A stretch of DNA of 64,000 nucleotides from Chaenocephalus aceratus (taxonomy: Eukaryota; Chordata; Actinopteri; Perciformes; Channichthyidae): positions 806,001 through 870,000 of the forward strand of contig CM043803.1 in NCBI GenBank assembly GCA_023974075.1. The letters run 5' to 3'. The notes under the pieces are model-generated. The model had not been told where the DNA came from. It made no database searches and was given only the letters and a program-made list of their open reading frames with translations. The translations under genes and the position numbers were made by a program. Of the stretch, positions 10,863 through 58,139 are shown piece by piece; the first letter of the stretch is position 1; the number at the start of each line of letters is the position of its first letter.

Positions 10863-11288
10863 CTGTAGACAGAAGAGAGAGTGGCAGACTTTAGATAACA
10901 CGTTTATTATCTTTTATGTCTTCCTTATTTCCACCCAGGTGAACTAAATTAAGAAAAGTGTGTGCGGAAACACATTCAAATTAGGCAGAAAACTAAACCA
11001 AATGTTGGTGATATGCAGCATGCATGGCGACACAAAGGGCTTGTGGAAATCAAAAAAGTGGATTTTATTGGGGAACGCATAACCAGCAGAGTGAGCAAAG
11101 ATGGAGCCATGAAAGAAAAAGTGGGGAGGGAGGACAACAAGCTTCTCCTCTGGTACAATAGTTTACGTTCCAATAGAAAATGTCTTAGGGAGAGTGCAGC
11201 ATGGCATACGGTAGAAGCTGCGTTGTAAAAGAAAGAAGTGGAAGGAGGTAACTGAGGAGGGCTCTGGTGAGTATGACAGCAAACAGAC

Positions 11289-11987
11289 CTTTGAAGATAG
11301 GGACCGGCACCATAGACTTTCTGCCCAGAGAGCTTTGGGGGGGAGTTTGGCGGAGCTCAGCGGTACCAGTGGTCATTATGTCTGAGTCATTAGAAATGTC
11401 AGGCTTTGAATAGCCGGCTCTGTGTAACCACGAGTCACTGCTGCTGTTTTCAGTCGCCGTATCGGACGGCATTTTGGTTAAAATGCTGTCCGTGTCAGAA
11501 ATGTTCCTGCCGCCATTAAGATCTTCTGAAGGAGAGTCAGAGTGTGACAGCCTTTGAGCTTGTTGTGTTTCTGCGGACATGCTTTCGAACGTTAAAACGG
11601 CGTCATCTTTTTCAGAGCTGTCTGTCTCTCCTTGATTGACCAACACCTCTTTGTCCCCAATGGACGTCAGGTCTTCCAAAGCAGCGCTCCGAATCAAAGA
11701 CATCCCGGGCAGATTGCTGGTTTCACTCAGGCACTCGGAGGCGTCCAGGCTGATCGCCCGTTGAGAGTCCACGGCTGCAGGGCTCGCCATGTCGTCCCGT
11801 CTTATCTCCGACCCGTGGCTGAGGTCTTCAGAGGCCCATAAAGACTCACCTAGCCTCTTCCCACACTCTTCCACCGCCTCATTTCCTGGGTCCATCGGGC
11901 AGGAAGCTCCCATGGAGTCAATGCCCTCCCTAGTGGCTCCATCGCCCGCACACACAAAGTCACGGCAGTCTCCAGAAGCACGCTTTG
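11289..11987 (-). CDS. mapt: tau large cassette exon (699 nt), exon-4A / big-tau-like
   Basis: A 233-codon, phase 1-1 exon beginning KRASGDCRDFVCAGDG and ending SMVPVPIFK. It is acidic and Ser/Thr-rich, and its position and size resemble the big-tau exon 4A of other vertebrates, although the sequence is not obviously conserved. The acceptor is good (a CTAAC branch-like site then AAATTAG). The donor is weak (AAAG|GTCTGT) but is the only site giving the right phase into the 35-nt exon. Because it is symmetric, skipping it keeps frame. If the donor were not used, translation would run on into a hydrophobic stretch and stop at about 11,185. Confidence 0.83.
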
Positions 11988-12964
11988 CTAATTTGTTAGG
12001 AAAGGAGATTAATGATGACATTCACAGCACTTGTTTTCCATCTCCCCATTGAAACTAAATATATAATTAAAGATGGGACAGAACTGGACAAATGCCGTCC
12101 ATGACCAAAAGTCTATTTGGATATTTCCATAAACAGAAGAACAGAGAGCTAAAAAAAAGTGAGATGTGATCAATGGTGGAAAAAAAACCTTCACATGAAA
12201 TAAAAATGAGATGGAAATGGACATTAATGCATCACATCAGGCTGACAGACAACACATGATGCATTCAAGTGAACAGAATGAACAACAGACGACTAACATC
12301 ATTCCTTTCCATAATAAGAATTAAATACAACAATTATAGAGCTATATAAAGTGTATGCAGTCTGGATTGTGGCACTGCAACAAATATAGACGTTTACAGT
12401 GTACAATAAGAATTATTATAAAAATAAAATAGTATAAAATAATACAAAGGTATAAGTAATAAATTAATACATTAATTCATAAGGAATGTGCATGCATTAA
12501 AAATACAATTACATTTGCAAATCATTTATTATGTTTAATCATTTTGCCTTTGACTTATACATTACATTTTAAATCACAATATTATCTAAAACATGTTGAA
12601 GATGCTTTTTGCTATGTGACAGATGTCTTTTTTTAAAGCTTAAATATTTAATTGAATTCATGTTATGTAAAATGTTGCTTTGCTTTTGCATTTTTATACA
12701 AATAATGGATCAGACATATAAAGTGAAATAGTGCGGTTTGAGTAAATTGTACAATTAATTTTGTGAAGTGTAATGATAATGCTTTTACTTTAATAACTAC
12801 GCATCTAAAATGACCCTTCTCTATGGTTTAATGTATTAGTAAGTACCAATTAAACCCCGTCAGGTATCACATAAAACAGTCCTGGAGTCCTAACTGTCCA
12901 TATCCATCAGCTGCCGTCATTAAATACAGCCCAAGTGCGATCAATCAAATACTTAACAGCCTAC

Positions 12965-38239: not shown

Positions 38240-41200
38240 TACTGTAGGTCATTTTCTTTTTTTTCCTTTAACCTTTATTTAACCAGATAAAAAGCATTGA
38301 GATAAAATCTCATTTACAATGCTGACCTGGCCAAGAAGGCAGCAACATTACACATTTGTACACATAACACAGACATATAAAATACAGAGAACACAACTAA
38401 GTAAACAAAAAACAAAACGAATAGCAGTCGCTACATTGTGCACATTTGGGACAGTAAGAAAGGTACTACTTATTACTGCAAGAGCAGCTGGTGGTAAGGA
38501 CCTCAGACAACTTCAATTTAAAACAGGCTATAGGGACAAGTGCTGTCAGTTTAAGGCGTGATTGAAGGCCATTCCAAAACCAAGGACCATAATTAAAAAT
38601 ACTCCTTTTTCCAGCCTCAGTCCGCACAGCAGGAACCTGGAACCGTATCCAGGCACTGGATCTGAGGTTGTAAGAGTCACAAACTGGTGCAAATCTGGCA
38701 CATATATACAGTGGAAGGTTACCTAAAATGGCTTTATACAATAATAAAAACCAATGCTGCATCCTACGCATACTAAGTGAGGACCATCCATTTAGGCTAT
38801 ACAGTTTGCAATGATGAGTCCTATAGGGTGCATTTGATATATAACACAGTGCAACATGGTAGAGTGGGTCAATTTTGGCCAAAACAGTGGGACAGGCAAA
38901 TCTATAAATGGTATCACCGTCAAGCTGGGACAGGAATAAGCCAGAGACCAACCTTTTACGGGAAGAAGTTGAAAAACAACATTTAAGTCTGTAAAGGAAG
39001 CCAAGAGTGAATTTCAATTTCTTAGTTAGAACTTCGATGTGGTGTTTAAAGTTTAGATTTCTGTCCAACCAAAAGCCCAAATAGTTGTATGTATCGACAA
39101 ACTCAACGGAGACGCCATCAAGGGTGTCAATGGAAAGGCAAGAGGACGCTGACTTGGGAGCAAAGAGCATTGCTTTGGTTTTCTTACTGTTCAATAGCAG
39201 TTTAGAATCAAGAAGCGCATGCTGTAGCGTGATCAATCAGTTTTTAAATTGGAAATGGCCATATCCAGAGAAGGAGCACCTGAGTATGCAATAGTGTCAT
39301 AAGCATACATATGATAGGTAAAAAATTGCATCTGATTACAAATATTGTTTACGTATAATAAAAAGAGCAAGGGCCCCAAAATAGAGCCCTGTGGAACTCC
39401 CTTCTCCAAGATGACAGGGTCAGAGACAGTATTACCCAACCTGACGCATTGAGTACGGTCGGTTAGATAACTTTGAAACCAGCAAATGGCATTATGACCT
39501 AAACGAGACATCAACATAACATTAGACAGAATGTGGTGATCTACAATGTCAAATGCTTTGGCTAAGTCAATAAACAATGCAACACAAACATATTTTTTAT
39601 CCAAAGCCATCCATCCATCTTCTCCCGTTTATCCGTGGTTGGGTCGCGGGGGTAGCAGTTCCAGCAGAGAGCCCCAAACTTTCCTTTCCCTGGCCACATC
39701 AACCAGCTCTGACTGGGGGATCCCAAGGCGCTCCCAGGCGAGCGAAGAGATATAATCCCTCCACCTGGTCCTAGGTCTACCCCTTGGTCTCTTCCCAGCT
39801 TTTATCCAAAGCAGCCTTAATATCATCTAAGACTTTCAGACTGGCAGTCACAGTACTGTGCTTTGATCTGAATCCAGATTGCATAGGGTTAAGGATGTTG
39901 TGTGAATTTAAAAAAGGTTTTAGCTGAGTAGAAACTAGGGACTCAAGAATCTTTGATAACACAGAAAGATTTGAGATAGGACGATAGTTATTCAACTCAG
40001 AGGGATCACCAGCTTTCAAGAGGGGCGATACCAGAGCTTGCTTCCACACAGCTGGCAGTGTGTGAGTGGACAGGGAGAGATTAAAAATATCAGTTACTGG
40101 TTGAGCTATAATGTGAGCTTCAATTTTTAAAAAGAAAGGATCTAGGCCGTCAGGCCCAGCAGACTTGTTAGGGTCAATTGAGTGCAAACCGTGTAAGACT
40201 TCAGAGACCGAGAAAGAAGTGAAATCAAAAACAGGGGAGTTCATCTCTTGACTAGGGCTGTGAGTACGACCATTTAGAGAGTCATGACTTTGCTCATCAA
40301 AAATGTGACCAGCCTTTTTGAAGTGAGCATTACAGGCATTAGACATACCATCTGAATCTGAAATAAAAGAATCACTGACCTTCCGTTTTTGAGGGAAACT
40401 AGAAACCTTCTTGTTCTGAAGTGATTTAATTGTTTTCCAGAACTTAGAATGGTCATTAAAACAATCAGTGGTTAAGCTCAGATAGTAATCAGCTTTAGCT
40501 TTTTTAATAAGGGCTGAACATTTATTCTGAGGACACGGAAAAGAAGCCAGTCATCACTAGTGTTAGACTTTCTAGCTAAGGACTATTACTTATTGCGATC
40601 AGGTCATTCTCTAGTAAACCATGGAGTGTTCCTATTCTTAACTCTGAATTTTCTAAGGGGGGCATGTCTATTAATAATCGATAAAAAGTGATCAATAAAA
40701 AATTGGACGGCAACATCAACAGATTAATGCTATGAAGTGCCATTTAACCTCCGCCAGATCGTGTAGGAAAGCCTGCTCAGAGAAGTGTTTGAAGCAGCGC
40801 CTGAGCACAATAAGGCCCTTGGCTTTGGGCAACTTAGTGCTCCTAATGCAAGCAATAGTGCAATGGTCGCTGATATCATTATGATTAGGAAAAACACCAA
40901 CAGACACATACTTATGAGCTGCATTTGTTAGAATGACATCTATAAGGGTATCGTTATTGGGTTTGGCAGGGTTTATTCTAGTGGGACTATCAATAAGCTG
41001 AGTTAAGTTCAAAGAATCACAAACCTGCTAAAACTGTGAAGATTTATCACTCAGCCAGTCCCAATTTAAATCACTCAATAATATGATTTCAGAAGAAAAC
41101 GTAGACAACAATTCAGTAAGGCTAGTAGTTGCATCCATGATGGCCGATGGAGGCCTATAACAGCCAATAACAGTGAGAGGAGCATTTGCTATAGTTATTT

Positions 41201-49703: not shown

Positions 49704-49803
49704 CAAGTCTAATTAAGTCCTTGAAATAAAGGTGTTATCAAGTGCTATCTGCGTTTGGGTCCTACCTGCTTCAGTTTGCGTATCAGAAAGCACCAACCAA
49801 GAA

Positions 49804-51090
49804 ATGGGCCCAGCAGATCCGTTCGAGCTGGAATTATTGAATTTTTCCTTTTTTTTGGCTAACTGCTCGGATCGATGGAAGAGAGCACCCGGAGTTCAGC
49901 AGCGAGAGGCTGTGTTGTCGGAGGCGCGCCAGATGGCTAGAGAGAAACCAGGTTTGGTGAAGTTCTTACCTGGCTGGATTTCAAAGATCCTCCCGGTGTG
50001 TGATTCCCGGCCTGCTAGCCCCAGGCATGCTAGCTCCCTGTCTCCCAATTCCCAACCTGGTACCATACGCCTCGCTGGGTTCTGTCTGAAGTCAACCCAT
50101 GCTTCTTCCCCAGTTCCTGGCTCCATGCTCCAGTATCGGCCCACACAGCCATGGTTTCGTGCTCCAGTACCATCCCACACAGCCATGGTTCTGGCTACGG
50201 AACCGGCCCCGGTACCCATGGTCCCGACTCCAGCTCCTCGTCTCCAGTTGGCTGTTCAGCCGACGCCAGCTCCCTGAGTCCTGTCGGCGTACCGGCCGAC
50301 TCCAGCACCTCGTCTCCTGCTGGCTACCCAGCCGATGGCAGCTCCCCGAGTCTTGTCGGCGTACCGGCCGAGTCCAGCACCTCGTCTCCTGCTGGCTCTC
50401 CAGCCGACGCCAGCTCCCCGTGTCCTGTCGGCGTACCGACCGACACAAGTTCCTTCTCAAGACCCATCTCAAGACCCCTCTCAAGTCCCCTTTCAACTTC
50501 CCTCTCCAGTCCCTCCAGTCCCCTCTCAAGTCCCCTCTCAAGTCTCTTCTCGAGATCCCTCTCAAGTCAACTCTCAAATTTCCTCTCGAGTTCCCTCTCG
50601 AGTCCCAACTCCATGTCCTGTGCCGTTGGAGGTCCCGCAGACTGCTCTTCTGCCGGGGGTCCTGCCAACTCCATGTCCTGTGCCGTTGGAGGTCCCGCAG
50701 ACTGCTCTTCTGCCGGGGTCCTGCCAACTCCATGACCTGTGCCGTTGGAGGTTCCGCCGACTGCTCTCCTGCCGGGGGTCCTGCCGGCCCTGTGTCCTCT
50801 TCCGTGGGGAATCTTGCCGACACCTGTCCCACCGGCTCCGGATCCTGTCCGGTCGACACCGGCTCCTGCCCGGCCTCCGGAGCTGTCCGGTCTTCGCCCT
50901 CGAGCCCGGTCCCCTGAGTTCGCCCGCTGTGGTCTTCGCCCCGCCTCTAACTCTGTCTTGCCCCCAGGCCGTCCGCCCGAGACCCCCTCTTCGAACTCTG
51001 CCTTGTCCTGGGCTATCAGCCAAGGCCCGTCCTCCGGAACCCTTCCACCCACCCTGCTGGACGTTGTTGGATTTTTGTTTTGGTGTTTAG
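49804..51090 (+). CDS. Proline/serine-rich gag-like frames of the LTR element
   Basis: A frame starting MGPADPFELELLNFSFF and continuing with a short helical region (QQREAVLSEARQMAREKPGL) runs into long Pro/Ser/Thr-rich sequence built of degenerate repeats (GCCGACGCCAGCTCCC-like units; the CCATGTCCTGTGCCGTTGGA unit occurs twice, with a diverged third). Open frames exist in all three plus frames and on the minus strand because of the repeat composition. At best it is a gag-like protein; I do not assign a function. Confidence 0.4.
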
Positions 51091-51160
51091 GGACGTCTAG
51101 AATCCGTCCCTTGAGGAGGGGGTTCTGTCACGATTATCATGTCATGTCACATTTCTATGG

Positions 51161-51710
51161 CCCTTTCTCATTTCTCAAACTCCCTCGACTCCCTCCTCGA
51201 CTCCTATCCTCGATACTTAGTCCCGCCCCCAGGAGATGCGAGCGGAGGAGCCGAGGAGGGGAACCGAGGAGAGAGGAGGGGAAGCAGCAGGCGGTTAGAG
51301 AAATGAGAACTCCTCTCCTCTGAGCGGTCATTTTAAAGAGACGTCCATTAATGATGACAGGAGGCACAGCAGCCCTCTGTCTGATGGACAGATGTGTTCA
51401 TGATGACTTATATATTTACTTTGATTCATTCACAGTGCGGTATAATGAGACAATAACAGGCTACAGATGCGGACACGCACACACACATATATATGTATAT
51501 ATCTATATAAATATATACAATTTCAGAATCAAACAGTTTCCTTGTCTGTTTTGGGGGCTGGTATTGTGGTGTGAGATCCCTGTGGTTGGTGACGGTGTGC
51601 ACATATTCATTCATTTTTGATTGTTTATGTGGATTTGTAGTCTTTGTGTTACTGTATGTTCAATAAAGGTGTATTTTTGTTAAGTCTTGAGACATTGTCA
51701 CTGTATGTAC
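51161..51710. repeat. Unclassified dispersed repeat
   Basis: It begins CCCTTTCTCATTTCTCAAAC at the break in the 3' LTR, has a purine-rich GAGGAGGGGAACCGAGGAGA segment and AATAAAGG near 51,661. Boundaries and family unknown. Confidence 0.4.
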
Positions 51711-52769: not shown

Positions 52770-52924
52770 GTACTAGGCCTCAAGAGCCTTTCTTGTGCTG
52801 GCAGACACATAGAAACAAATTGGCGGGGCACACTTCGCACGTGCACACACTAAAAAATTAAATGCGCTTCATTATGCTGGGCCCACGTGCCTTAGCACCG
52901 CTGCTATGACTCCATATAGACAGG

Positions 52925-53221
52925 GTCAATTTTCACAAAATCAGAACCCCGAAGGCATTTTGTGTTTATTTATGCCATACAACATTTTCTCGGGGTATTA
53001 AGGGGTGCTGAATCCAAATCTGCTGTATATGAAGCTCAAAAATGTCCCAAAATGCCTCGAAATTGAGAAATCCAACATGGCCGCCACCACCAGCCTGAAA
53101 TCTATTCTAAGTATATATTTTTGACTAAACAAGGTACAAACTTGAATTAAATGTGCTTTTGTAAGTTCTCCTACATGGGCAATCTGATGCCATATTCAGA
53201 TTTGAGATGTAATGTGAATAA
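52925..53221 (+). repeat. Left terminal inverted repeat of the nuclease-encoding element
   Basis: About 290 bp that reappear inverted at 57,190-57,480, including GGCATTTTGTGTTTATTTAT, GGGGTATTAAGGGGTGCTGA, CCAACATGGCCGCCACC and ACTAAACAAGGTACAAACT. The outermost bases could not be aligned with certainty. Confidence 0.87.
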
Positions 53222-53355
53222 ACTGCTTAGATCTCATATATATTGCAAAAATAGTAGTTTTTAACTATGAATAATTACTCGGCTATTATTATTATTATCA
53301 GGCTACTTTTACTTACGTTGTATATTGTTTTGAGGTTAAATGTTTCAAATGTGCT

Positions 53356-56332
53356 GTGATGGAACCTTTGCCTTCCCCACTATTGCCCACCCACCCACAA
53401 AAGCAACAAAACAAACCAAAAAGAGGAATCACAGAGCGCCCATTCAGCGGTGTATTAGCAGAAGACTGTTTCACACAGTCATCTGAACAATGTCCTGCAG
53501 CACAGAAAGCACAAGCTACAGACATGGCCTTCTTCATGTCCAGGACATCTAAAAAGCCAATGCCTTCCTGGATATTGTACAATCAAAAGGCAAGCACAGT
53601 CAACCCAGAGAAAACTACAGTAGGCTACCTACCTATCATCCAGGCTCCTGCATCTGAACTCGATACACTGAACACAGCTATCAAGCGAGTGCTTCATATC
53701 TCCAAATCAATGGAACAACAGCATGTCATTCTGACAGTGGGCGAGGCACTTTATCCGAAGTTGCTAGAACTAAAGTAGTCAGTAGAAGAATACAAGGACG
53801 TGCTTATCCCTTGCCTTGGAGGCCTTCACATTGCCATGAACTTCCTGGGTGTGAAGGGACAACACATGGTTGATTCTGGCCTGAGCGAGCTATGGGTCAA
53901 GTGTGATCTAATGGGAGAAAATGCTGCTCAGCATGTCATGGCAGGAAAGGGGTGCACGTGCCACAAGGACCCACAAACTTACCCTACAGGCTCTTTGGCA
54001 GCTATTGCTCCCACGGCTTTACACATATCTGGATGAGGTTGATGTTACACTGAGAGCTGAACTCTCAGATCTCTGCCAATCCGTAGATGCTGACCACATC
54101 GCGCAGATGGTCGACAAACTGACTACAGACACATTCCAGCAGCCCATGAAAGAGTTTGCTGCATCGCTTGCAGTTGATGACCCGAATGCCGCATTCTGGT
54201 GGGACTACATGACTATGGTCAGCATCGTACTCTGCTTCACAAGAGCGCAGCGTGATGGATTGTGGGATCTCCACCTGTATGCTTTCAAACGTATGCTGCC
54301 CTTCTTCTTCAGGTACGTTCATATAAACGACGCCAGATGGGGTACTGTGTACCTGGCTGAGATGTCTGCTCTCCCACCAGAAATCCTCCTCGAGTTTCAG
54401 AAAGGCAACTTCTTGGTGAAACGCAGTGATCGACGCTTCAATCAGGTTCAGCGGATCAAAGTACTGAGTGGCTAAACGCTACAGGAAAAAAGAGTGGAGG
54501 CTTAGTGGGCATCACCAGGATAGCAACATCTCTCAGTAGATGGACATTGTCGTATAATCTGAGAACAGTCATAGCTTCTCAGACAAAAGAAATGCTGAGA
54601 CTGACAACATATGATGAAGACGATGAGTACACACACACTGAGTGCACAAAGAGTAGAATGGAGAGAGACGACAGGGATGAAAGCAAAATATGTGTATCAT
54701 TGAAAGAGCACTGTGTGTTTCAAGATGGTGGGGACACACTCAAGAACATAATCAACAAGGAAGTGGTCACACCGGAGATTCAAGAATCTCTGCTTGGTGC
54801 AGAACATCTTGGACAGGCACAAATGAAAGTGTTTGTGGACAAACGTCTGTGTGAACCTCCAGCTAGTGACCAGCACTTTGGACTGAAGTCACCCATTCGA
54901 AAGAACAAAGCCAAGACATTTGCCTCTTTGTATGAAGTCGTGCAACTTTCCAAGAACAAGCAAAACACCATGACAGAGGACAGGCAGATTCTACAAAGGC
55001 TAGTCACAGCTTACAGAGCAGGTCGTAAGGTAGACCTGGAAAATGTCCTCCAGCATGAACTCATGCCCATCCCGCCATCTCTGGCCGCAACTAACGGCAG
55101 TCTACATTCCACCAACAAATCTGTTTTAGCAAATATACTGACAAAACATGTCCGAACGCCTGCAGATGTGCCCCTTCAGGAACCCAGCTGCCTGGCTATT
55201 GATGGCCAAGCACTTGTAATGGCACTTGGGAAGCCGCCTGACACTACAACATTTGGCGACTATGCCAACAAGTTTGCTGAGACGGTGTTGAAGATGGGAG
55301 AAGTACCAGAGGGTTGATATAGTCTTTGACAGGTACCGTGACAAATCCATCAAAATGGGCACAAGTAGGAAACGTAAATAGCGTCACCGACCAGTACGCA
55401 GAGAAATCGTTAATGACTCCGTTCCACTTCCAGCAGACTGGTCAAGCTCCATGGCACTGGAAGAGAACAAAGCAGATCTCGCTCGAATACTCTCAAATCC
55501 ATCTGATAGAACACAGCCCAGAAGATGAGCCTGTGGTTGTAATATCGGGTGGGTTTGTTGAAGCAACCACTGTCAAGTCATCAGATCCAGATCTTGATCT
55601 CTCCTCTTCAATGGCTGACCACGAGGAGGCTGATACACGTCTGATTTTGCACTGCATCCAGGCTCCAATGGACACAATAGTTGTGTCAGTGCGTGACACA
55701 GACGTGCTTCTTCTACTTTTAGCACACCATGACAGAATCGGATGTACCCGTCTCTACATTAAAGCCGGGACATCAAAGGATCCAAAGTATTTTCCAGTAC
55801 ATGACATTCGCAAGTTATTATCTGATGATCAAGTGGACACACTCCTTGCCTTCCATGCCATCACTGGCTGTGATAGTGTGTCTCAGTTCAGCGGTCACGG
55901 AAAGAAAACAGCCTGGCAGGTGTTCGAGCAACATCACACCGATCTTACTGGCCTTGTGAAGGGCCCTCTCACAGAAGGTATTGTAACATCAACAGATATC
56001 TTACAGTATCTGTAAGATGTATGGTGTGCCAGAGGTTGATACATGCAACAAAGCAAGAGTTAAGTTGTTTTGCAAAGAGACTCTGCCACCAACCTCAGAT
56101 GCAGTGAGGTTTCATATCATGCGTTTACACTATCAATCGACAATCTGGAACCAAGCTCACCTGCCACATCCTGATCTTCCGTGGATGAAATGGGATGGAT
56201 GCACAAGGAAGGTCAGTTAGTGCCACGGCTACTGTCTTTGCCACCTATGCCTAAAGCCTGCAGGGAGTTTACTTCATGTGGGTGTACCAAGGGATGCCTC
56301 AGCCAACGCTGCAGCTGCAGGTATGTGTAGAG
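53356..56332 (+). pseudogene. Broken transposon protein: N-terminal region, PIN/FEN-like domain, CXC cysteine cluster
   Basis: In order: an N-terminal part with VGYLPIIQAPASELDTLNTA (about 53,620), an in-frame TAG at 53,776, GGLHIAMNFLGVKGQHM, a frameshift near 53,950, a helical middle (YLDEVDVTLRAELSDLCQSV), a stop at 54,472, a further region to 55,317, then after another break DHEEADTRLILHC, VRDTDVLLLLLAHH and AFHAITGCDSVSQFSGHGKK (55,617-55,930). EAD, DTD and GCD followed by a GxGKKTAW helix-hairpin-helix-like motif recall the acidic residues and H2TH of XPG/FEN/PIN nucleases. After a stop at 56,013 and a frameshift near 56,195 the end reads ACREFTSCGCTKGCLSQRCS then CRYV, a CXC/tesmin-like zinc cluster. 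The nuclease reading is my inference from motif spacing. Confidence 0.72.
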
Positions 56333-56817
56333 GATTAGCTGATCAATGTGTACAAGATCGTACAAATATGATAGACTGGTTGAGAATATCAGCCTGCCAG
56401 ACTGCATACTGCTGACTGTTTGTGGTTAACAGATTGTTGAAACCATAACCGGATAATTGTGAACCTATAACTGAGAAAAAAAGTAACAAAGGAACACAAT
56501 AAGTGTAAGGATAACTGTAACGTGTATTCCAATGTACCTGTACTTGTACTGGTCATAATCTGTCTATTATATTAAATTCAGAAAGAGTCACATGGAATGT
56601 ATAGAGGCATGCAACAGCAGGAAACATGACAACACCTGCCGGAACACTGTAGAAGACGCTGCTTTTTAAAAGTGCCTGCCTTTTGGCAATTTCCCAGAGG
56701 GTTTGATGTAAAAAAGGCAGTGTGAACAGGCCCACTCCTTCTTCTTCATTGCCTTAACACTGGATGGCCTGAGAGCTATAATTTGGGTTTATTTATTGTT
56801 TTAATATATTTGTTTTA

Positions 56818-56857
<40 letters not shown>

Positions 56858-56858
56858 T
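56818..56858. repeat. (ATT)n microsatellite
   Basis: Thirteen or so TTA/ATT units between the element gene and its right repeat. Confidence 0.95.
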
Positions 56859-57189
56859 TGTAATCATTGATATATGGTGGTGTTTTATGAGATACTTGAA
56901 TGAGGTTTTTACCATTTCAGTATGATTTGTATTCTTATTGAGTTGAAAATTCCAATACCACCCATGTTCTTACTGTATTGGAGCAAATAAAAGCATCTAT
57001 AGGGCTTTGTTGACGGTACTGTTGCTCCACACTGTAGGCCTAATCGCATCATGTTTACGTTATGGTTTGGTGGCCAAATAAAAATTGTATTAATACACTT
57101 TCTAAGCAAGCCCTGGTTGAGTCTGACAACTTATTTATCACTAATGACCACCTTTTTCACTATACATGTATGATTTCAAGCTGATGATT

Positions 57190-57480
57190 CACATTTGATC
57201 TAAAATCAGGACAGTATATTCAATTCCCCATGTGTGAAAACATATAAAAACACATTTGATTCTAGTTTGTACCTTGTTTAGTCAAAAAGTAATGTACTAA
57301 AATAGATTTCAGCCTGGCGGTGGCGGCCATGTTGGATTTCTCAATTTTGAGGCATTCGGGGAAATTTTTGAGCTTCATATACAGTAGATTTGGATTCAGC
57401 ACCCCTTAATACCCCTAGAAATGTTGTATAGCATAAATAAACACAAAATGCCTTCAGCAGTTTAAATAAGCACATTTTCT
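57190..57480 (-). repeat. Right terminal inverted repeat of the nuclease-encoding element
   Basis: Reverse complement of 52,925-53,221 with roughly 85-90 percent identity by eye over the central 200 bp. Confidence 0.87.
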
Positions 57481-58139
57481 GAAATTCTGCCTAGTCTAAT
57501 AGGGGAAACACTGTATACAGTATGTCTAATAAGTATGTTACAAAATTAAACAGACAACAAACATGTACAGTTAAAAAAAAAACTAAATTAATAACGAGTG
57601 AGCTTTTGAGATTGATTGTTATATTTGGACATGATGCTGTTTCCCCCTTTTTCTTGTCTTTATGCTAAGCTAAGTGACTGGCTGCTAGCTGTAGCTTCAT
57701 ATTTATAGTAGTTTACCTGAAAGTGGGAACAATAATCTCATCAAACTCTCGGCCAAAAGTTTCACCCATACCTTTAATCAAATGTGTTGATTTGTCAGAC
57801 TGATTTTTTAATGGACATATTGTTTTTCATGGATAAATTATTCCTACAGAAGACATTCAATATTAAACAAATGACCATCAAATTGGTACATGTCTCATCA
57901 TTTTAAAGAATGTAATCCAAAACCAAATGTACATTAAATGGTCCTCAAAATGTTGTCTTCAGTAATTGTAATGTTATTTAAAATGCCTGTTTCCTTGTTT
58001 CTTGTCTAACATTGTAATTCATGGTCAACTATGCGCATTTAGCTGCTGTAATGAAGAATCATCTCAGACTTGAAATGAGGAAAGAGCAATATTGCATTGT
58101 GTATTGAGTCTGCAGTAACTGTGATAAAATACTCAACAG

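Follow-up and report, generated by a model that had tools for sequence, protein, structure and literature searches.

AcademX transposons, a lineage of the Academ superfamily, carry an XPG-type nuclease. The excerpt of PMC10045372 that describes the lineages says only "nuclease"; it gives target site duplications (TSDs) of 3 or 4 bp for AcademX and of 9 or 10 bp for AcademH, and links the two to nuclease and helicase, respectively. Other papers count Academ among the DDD/E superfamilies (PMC9587614), list it for zebrafish, medaka and stickleback and not for tetraodon (PMC4746887), report it from Xiphophorus (PMC4705583), and put the average size of curated Academ elements from bivalves at 5565 bp (PMC10294476). 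Here we describe a 4582-bp element in a 64-kb stretch of the Chaenocephalus aceratus genome (CM043803.1), referred to as the window, whose positions supply all feature coordinates below. We are confident in reading it as a copy of a cut-and-paste DNA transposon of the AcademX type (Academ superfamily) that has lost internal sequence, has accumulated mutations and is non-autonomous. Nuclease, DDE transposase and 3-bp TSD are as in AcademX, and Academ is likewise present in fish; the window copy differs from AcademX in being internally deleted and frame-broken.

The element occupies 52917..57498 on the plus strand and reads TAGACAGGG...CCTAGTCTA at its ends, which were defined by comparing the 18 elements with both ends available. 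The sequence-only reading had placed the limits at 52925-57480, which is roughly right; the exact ends lie slightly outside, at 52917 and 57498. Comparison of copies also places the ATA duplication at 52914..52916 on the left and 57499..57501 on the right. Repeat finding and arm alignment delimit a left terminal inverted repeat (TIR) at 52917..53250 (plus strand) and a right one at 57153..57498 (minus strand). The arms are about 300 bp long, and 52951-53250 matches 57153-57455 with 84% identity over 305 columns, a match that the repeat finder splits into blocks of 93%, 97% and 77%. A search of the genome with the left TIR, in which 40 of 68 candidates were scored, gave 40 matches, among which are the window copy and, for some elements, the right arm; identity is mostly 93-99% for left arms and lies at 86-88% for right arms. 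With this many matches in its own genome, the inverted repeats cannot be attributed to chance. The earlier description of inverted repeats enclosing a single plus-strand gene therefore stands, and the arms recur elsewhere in the genome.

Of the other 27 left-arm matches we took 20, each as an 8-kb stretch, which with the window copy gives a sample of 21 copies. Both ends fall within the stretch in 18 of them (for L039, L041 and L048 it contains no right end), and L032, whose flanks are identical to those of L031, was left out of the TSD count, so that 17 copies were scored. The 5' end is TAGACAGGG in 16 of these and TGGACAGGG in one; the 3' end is CCTAGTCTA, with single-base variants in two. 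An identical 3-bp word flanks the element in 17/17 copies, compared with a 3-bp match in 20/272 control pairings of a left flank with the right flanks of other copies. These are the consensus ends and target duplication that the sequence-only reading had proposed to derive from relatives.

The protein encoded by complete elements is best seen in relatives, which were sought with a 992-residue read-through of the window gene carrying X at the breaks. There are 70 relatives among 6952 candidates, and the full-length ones span about 1500-1560 residues, with some 1540 being typical. Long relatives share the same order of parts: two CCHC clusters, a DUF6589-like DDE domain, the FEN/XPG-fold nuclease domain and, last, the CXC-like tail. 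The named sources are the fish Coilia and Eleginops, the stick insect Dryococelus, and an entry labelled as a bacterial metagenome-assembled genome, which is possibly a mis-binned contig. Scanning IMG/VR with P0001, the full-length relative closest to the window copy, revealed no relative.

The upstream domain of the relatives contains a conserved D, D and E (D481, D646 and E889 in P0001). In model comparison it is most like the DDE (RNase H-fold) transposases of the P element, Hermes/hAT and RAG, with a large helical insertion. Judged by this comparison and by the secondary structure, it has in common with the P element, Hermes (hAT) and RAG1/Transib an RNase H fold in which a helical insertion precedes the final acidic residue; unlike them, it forms one protein with a nuclease and a CXC-like tail. 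The model supports assigning the DUF6589-like domain to the DDE transposases of the P/hAT kind. This fold assignment comes from a separate model comparison and not from the Foldseek listing, in which no match was counted at E<=0.001 for either model and the first row of one search stood at 1.0e-03. Sequence profile A1 retrieved nothing from the PDB sequences up to E 10. The Pfam family DUF6589 (PF20231) scores above its gathering threshold of 27 bits in one of six relatives scanned and below it in three, and gives no row for two (P0001 and P0048); precomputed annotation assigns it to 10 of the 70. Within the limited literature collection searched, no paper pairs DUF6589 with a transposase.

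The C-terminal domain is, on model comparison and alignment, a member of the FEN/XPG nuclease fold with a conserved acidic set, in agreement with the FEN-type nuclease originally proposed. The FEN/EXO1/XPG fold was found at residues 684-1047 of the relative P0035. The order of acidic metal-binding residues follows FEN1. In an alignment of 52 rows with P0001 numbering, the set is nearly invariant among rows having the residue: D1134 (46/46), D1177 (46/46), E1277 (43/44), D1279 (44/44), D1300 (44/44), D1302 (44/44) and D1359 (43/43). Fold and order of the acidic cluster thus appear to be those of the flap nucleases FEN1, EXO1 and XPG, from which the present nuclease differs in being a domain of a transposon protein. 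The tail that follows contains nine cysteines in a CXC-like arrangement, which we take, by eye, to resemble the Tesmin/TSO1 CXC domain in number, order and spacing. Neither an XPG nor a CXC Pfam match was present in the six relatives scanned, and comparison of the cysteine tail alone with solved structures returned one meaningless row (phospholipase A2, E 4.1).

Against this architecture, the window copy is a remnant. Its plus-strand gene lies between the TIRs and carries the motifs DHEEADTR, DTDVLLLLL and GCDSVSQFSGHGKKTAW followed by the cysteine tail, all of which the sequence-only reading had correctly listed, and stops and frameshifts interrupt its reading frame, as expected of the dead copy it had reported. 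Eight tblastn pieces cover residues 539-1537 of P0001; residues 1-538 have no tblastn match anywhere in the window at E<=1e-3. The remnant of the putative DDE transposase (DUF6589-like) corresponds to P0001 residues 539-929 and lies in three broken pieces at 53419..54588 (plus strand; tblastn, alignment and model comparison). The first catalytic D is missing along with residues 1-538, the second (D646 in P0001) is replaced by G, and the E889 region is retained. The frame-broken remnant of the FEN/XPG-fold nuclease, about residues 1132-1476, is located by tblastn, alignment and fold comparison at 55195..56199 on the same strand. Sequence, tblastn and alignment place the first part of the CXC-like tail at the end of the upstream exon, at 56277..56320 (plus). 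It is followed by a predicted GT...AG intron at 56321..56581 (plus), read from the tblastn exon breaks against the sequence, and by the last exon at 56582..56669 (plus; sequence and tblastn), which supplies the rest of the tail and the stop. The intron is placed within the cysteine tail because the last tblastn piece (residues 1512-1537) starts at an AG about 260 bp after the GT. The sequence-only reading did not note the intron, the last exon or the 538 lost codons. Pfam gave only two sub-threshold, unrelated rows on the broken gene pieces, and an Rfam scan of the window at gathering scores gave no match.

The missing codons were lost in a single event. Comparison with L050, a long copy of 7247 bp, together with tblastn, identifies an internal deletion junction at 53403..53414 (plus strand), where codons 1-538 have been removed. 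The deletion amounts to about 2.67 kb of L050, with offsets 496 and 3168 joined and about 12 nt between them. The same junction (3172 instead of 3168 in L038; about 12-15 nt apart) is present in 20 of the 21 copies, which points to one deletion as the founder of the short form. L050 is the only copy of the 21 with residues 1-538. A genome search with these residues (80 of 178 candidates scored) found one 70% match, in L050, and 78 others at <=49%; in the search with the whole of P0001, 30 of 888 candidates were scored, so that the genome may contain more long copies. Mean divergence is 1.8% among short copies (151 of 171 pairs scored), 1.6% between the window copy and the others (17 of 18 scored) and 2.7% between short copies and L050. 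The low divergence among short copies indicates a fairly recent spread. Some short copies carry additional sequence: L035 has an extra insertion of about 290 bp inside the gene, and L036, L037 and L042 have an extra 256 bp or so directly after the left TIR. These may be later insertions or mark sub-families.

Most short copies also share defects. Relative to L050, and with L032 included in the rows, one 4-nt difference occurs in 17/18 rows and one 1-nt difference in 14/18, and neighbouring 1-nt differences occur at two further places in 5/19 and 12/19 rows, where L050 reads through in one frame. Since frame-breaking indels are common to most short copies, the open reading frame was probably dead before the spread; judged from these sequences, the short form was probably already unable to make its protein when it multiplied. 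No intact nuclease-only gene was seen among the 20 short copies: in 18 the frame is broken or the tblastn pieces are separated by gaps, and for L041 and L048 a single partial piece was kept in the stretch fetched. The DDE region of L050 contains a separate frame break, absent from the 19 rows covering that spot, and so this copy is not intact either. We infer that full-length relatives, and not their own product, moved the short copies in trans.

These results bear directly on how the element moves. The sequence-only reading had suggested a FEN/PIN-fold nuclease acting in place of a DDE transposase, and the nuclease is indeed the most recognisable domain of the window copy, with its fold confirmed. 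That idea is now highly improbable and we reject it: a DDE-like domain whose catalytic residues are conserved lies upstream in the relatives and L050, the short form derives from a deletion, and common frame breaks in most short copies mean that their own product was probably not the driver of spread. The RNase H-fold comparison it had named as a check speaks against a nuclease-only mechanism, as the upstream domain of the relatives compares best with DDE transposases. With the front of the transposase gene deleted, the copy looks nuclease-only, and the claimed new mechanism of transposition reduces to one internal deletion that was later multiplied. A domesticated host gene, or a nuclease gene captured between inverted repeats by chance, would account for a single gene between TIRs and nothing more; given a multi-copy element with 3-bp TSDs, and parts of the gene inside the left TIR in 21/21 copies examined, its probability is negligible.

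The sequence-only reading recognised no named superfamily for the combination. A 3-bp TSD, a DDE domain plus a nuclease, and no helicase in the six relatives scanned fit the described AcademX lineage of Academ. The DDE transposase domain, as modelled, is present in the relatives and L050; the nuclease stands in place of the AcademH helicase; and 3 bp in 17/17 scored copies lies within the 3 or 4 bp of AcademX. AcademH, in print a member of the same superfamily, has a helicase and 9 or 10 bp TSDs as against 3 bp here, and a Pfam scan of the six relatives, with E values of up to 1 allowed, showed no helicase. Our filing under AcademX rests on published descriptions of Academ. Likeness judged by description leaves some room for a separate, unnamed DDE-plus-XPG superfamily of the same make-up and TSD, as does the fact that Pfam names neither domain in the six relatives, giving DUF6589 only. 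We consider this unlikely, as the TSD length and nuclease agree with the published AcademX description (PMC10045372), Academ is reported from fish (PMC4746887, PMC4705583), and the bivalve mean of 5565 bp falls in the range expected for TIRs together with a gene of some 4.6 kb, though L050 measures 7247 bp. A search of the limited literature collection yielded no paper joining Academ, XPG and transposon.

For the intact AcademX element we propose that the P-element/hAT-type DDE domain would cut and join the element ends. The FEN/XPG domain would process a single-stranded flap or gap arising from excision or target joining, and this may help to set the 3-bp duplication. The N-terminal clusters and CXC tail would bind DNA, and full-length relatives would mobilise the short copies in trans. 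A bolder reading, which we put at less than an even chance, has two active nucleases in one polypeptide, with the FEN/XPG domain trimming a flap so that the 3-bp duplication is fixed by the transposase and not by host repair. L051, a distant locus of this genome picked from the matches to residues 1-538, contains an open frame spanning at least 1182 residues, in which DUF6589 scores below threshold (23.7 of 27 bits), and downstream motifs VVVDVM, CCDRY, QQEADTR, NDTD and GRDTTS in the order of the window family. L051 keeps both parts in the same order, which suggests that transposase and nuclease have been together over a long time. The near-invariant acidic set beside a DDE domain, with these motifs, makes a role for the nuclease in transposition testable. 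L051 (55-945, 855-4400) looks like a second, distant transposase-plus-nuclease lineage, with CxxC...HxxC-like clusters in its upstream frame.

Elsewhere in the window, a broken reverse transcriptase gene, probably from a non-LTR element, lies at 38466-40550 on the minus strand (Pfam RVT_1; two pieces, E 9.9e-15 and 9.4e-08). Overlapping long open frames cover low-complexity Pro/Ser-rich repeats on both strands at 49717-51323, where the one frame scanned had no Pfam match at E<=0.01. At 11185-12021 on the minus strand, an open frame of 278 codons that matches no Pfam family may represent a host-gene exon.
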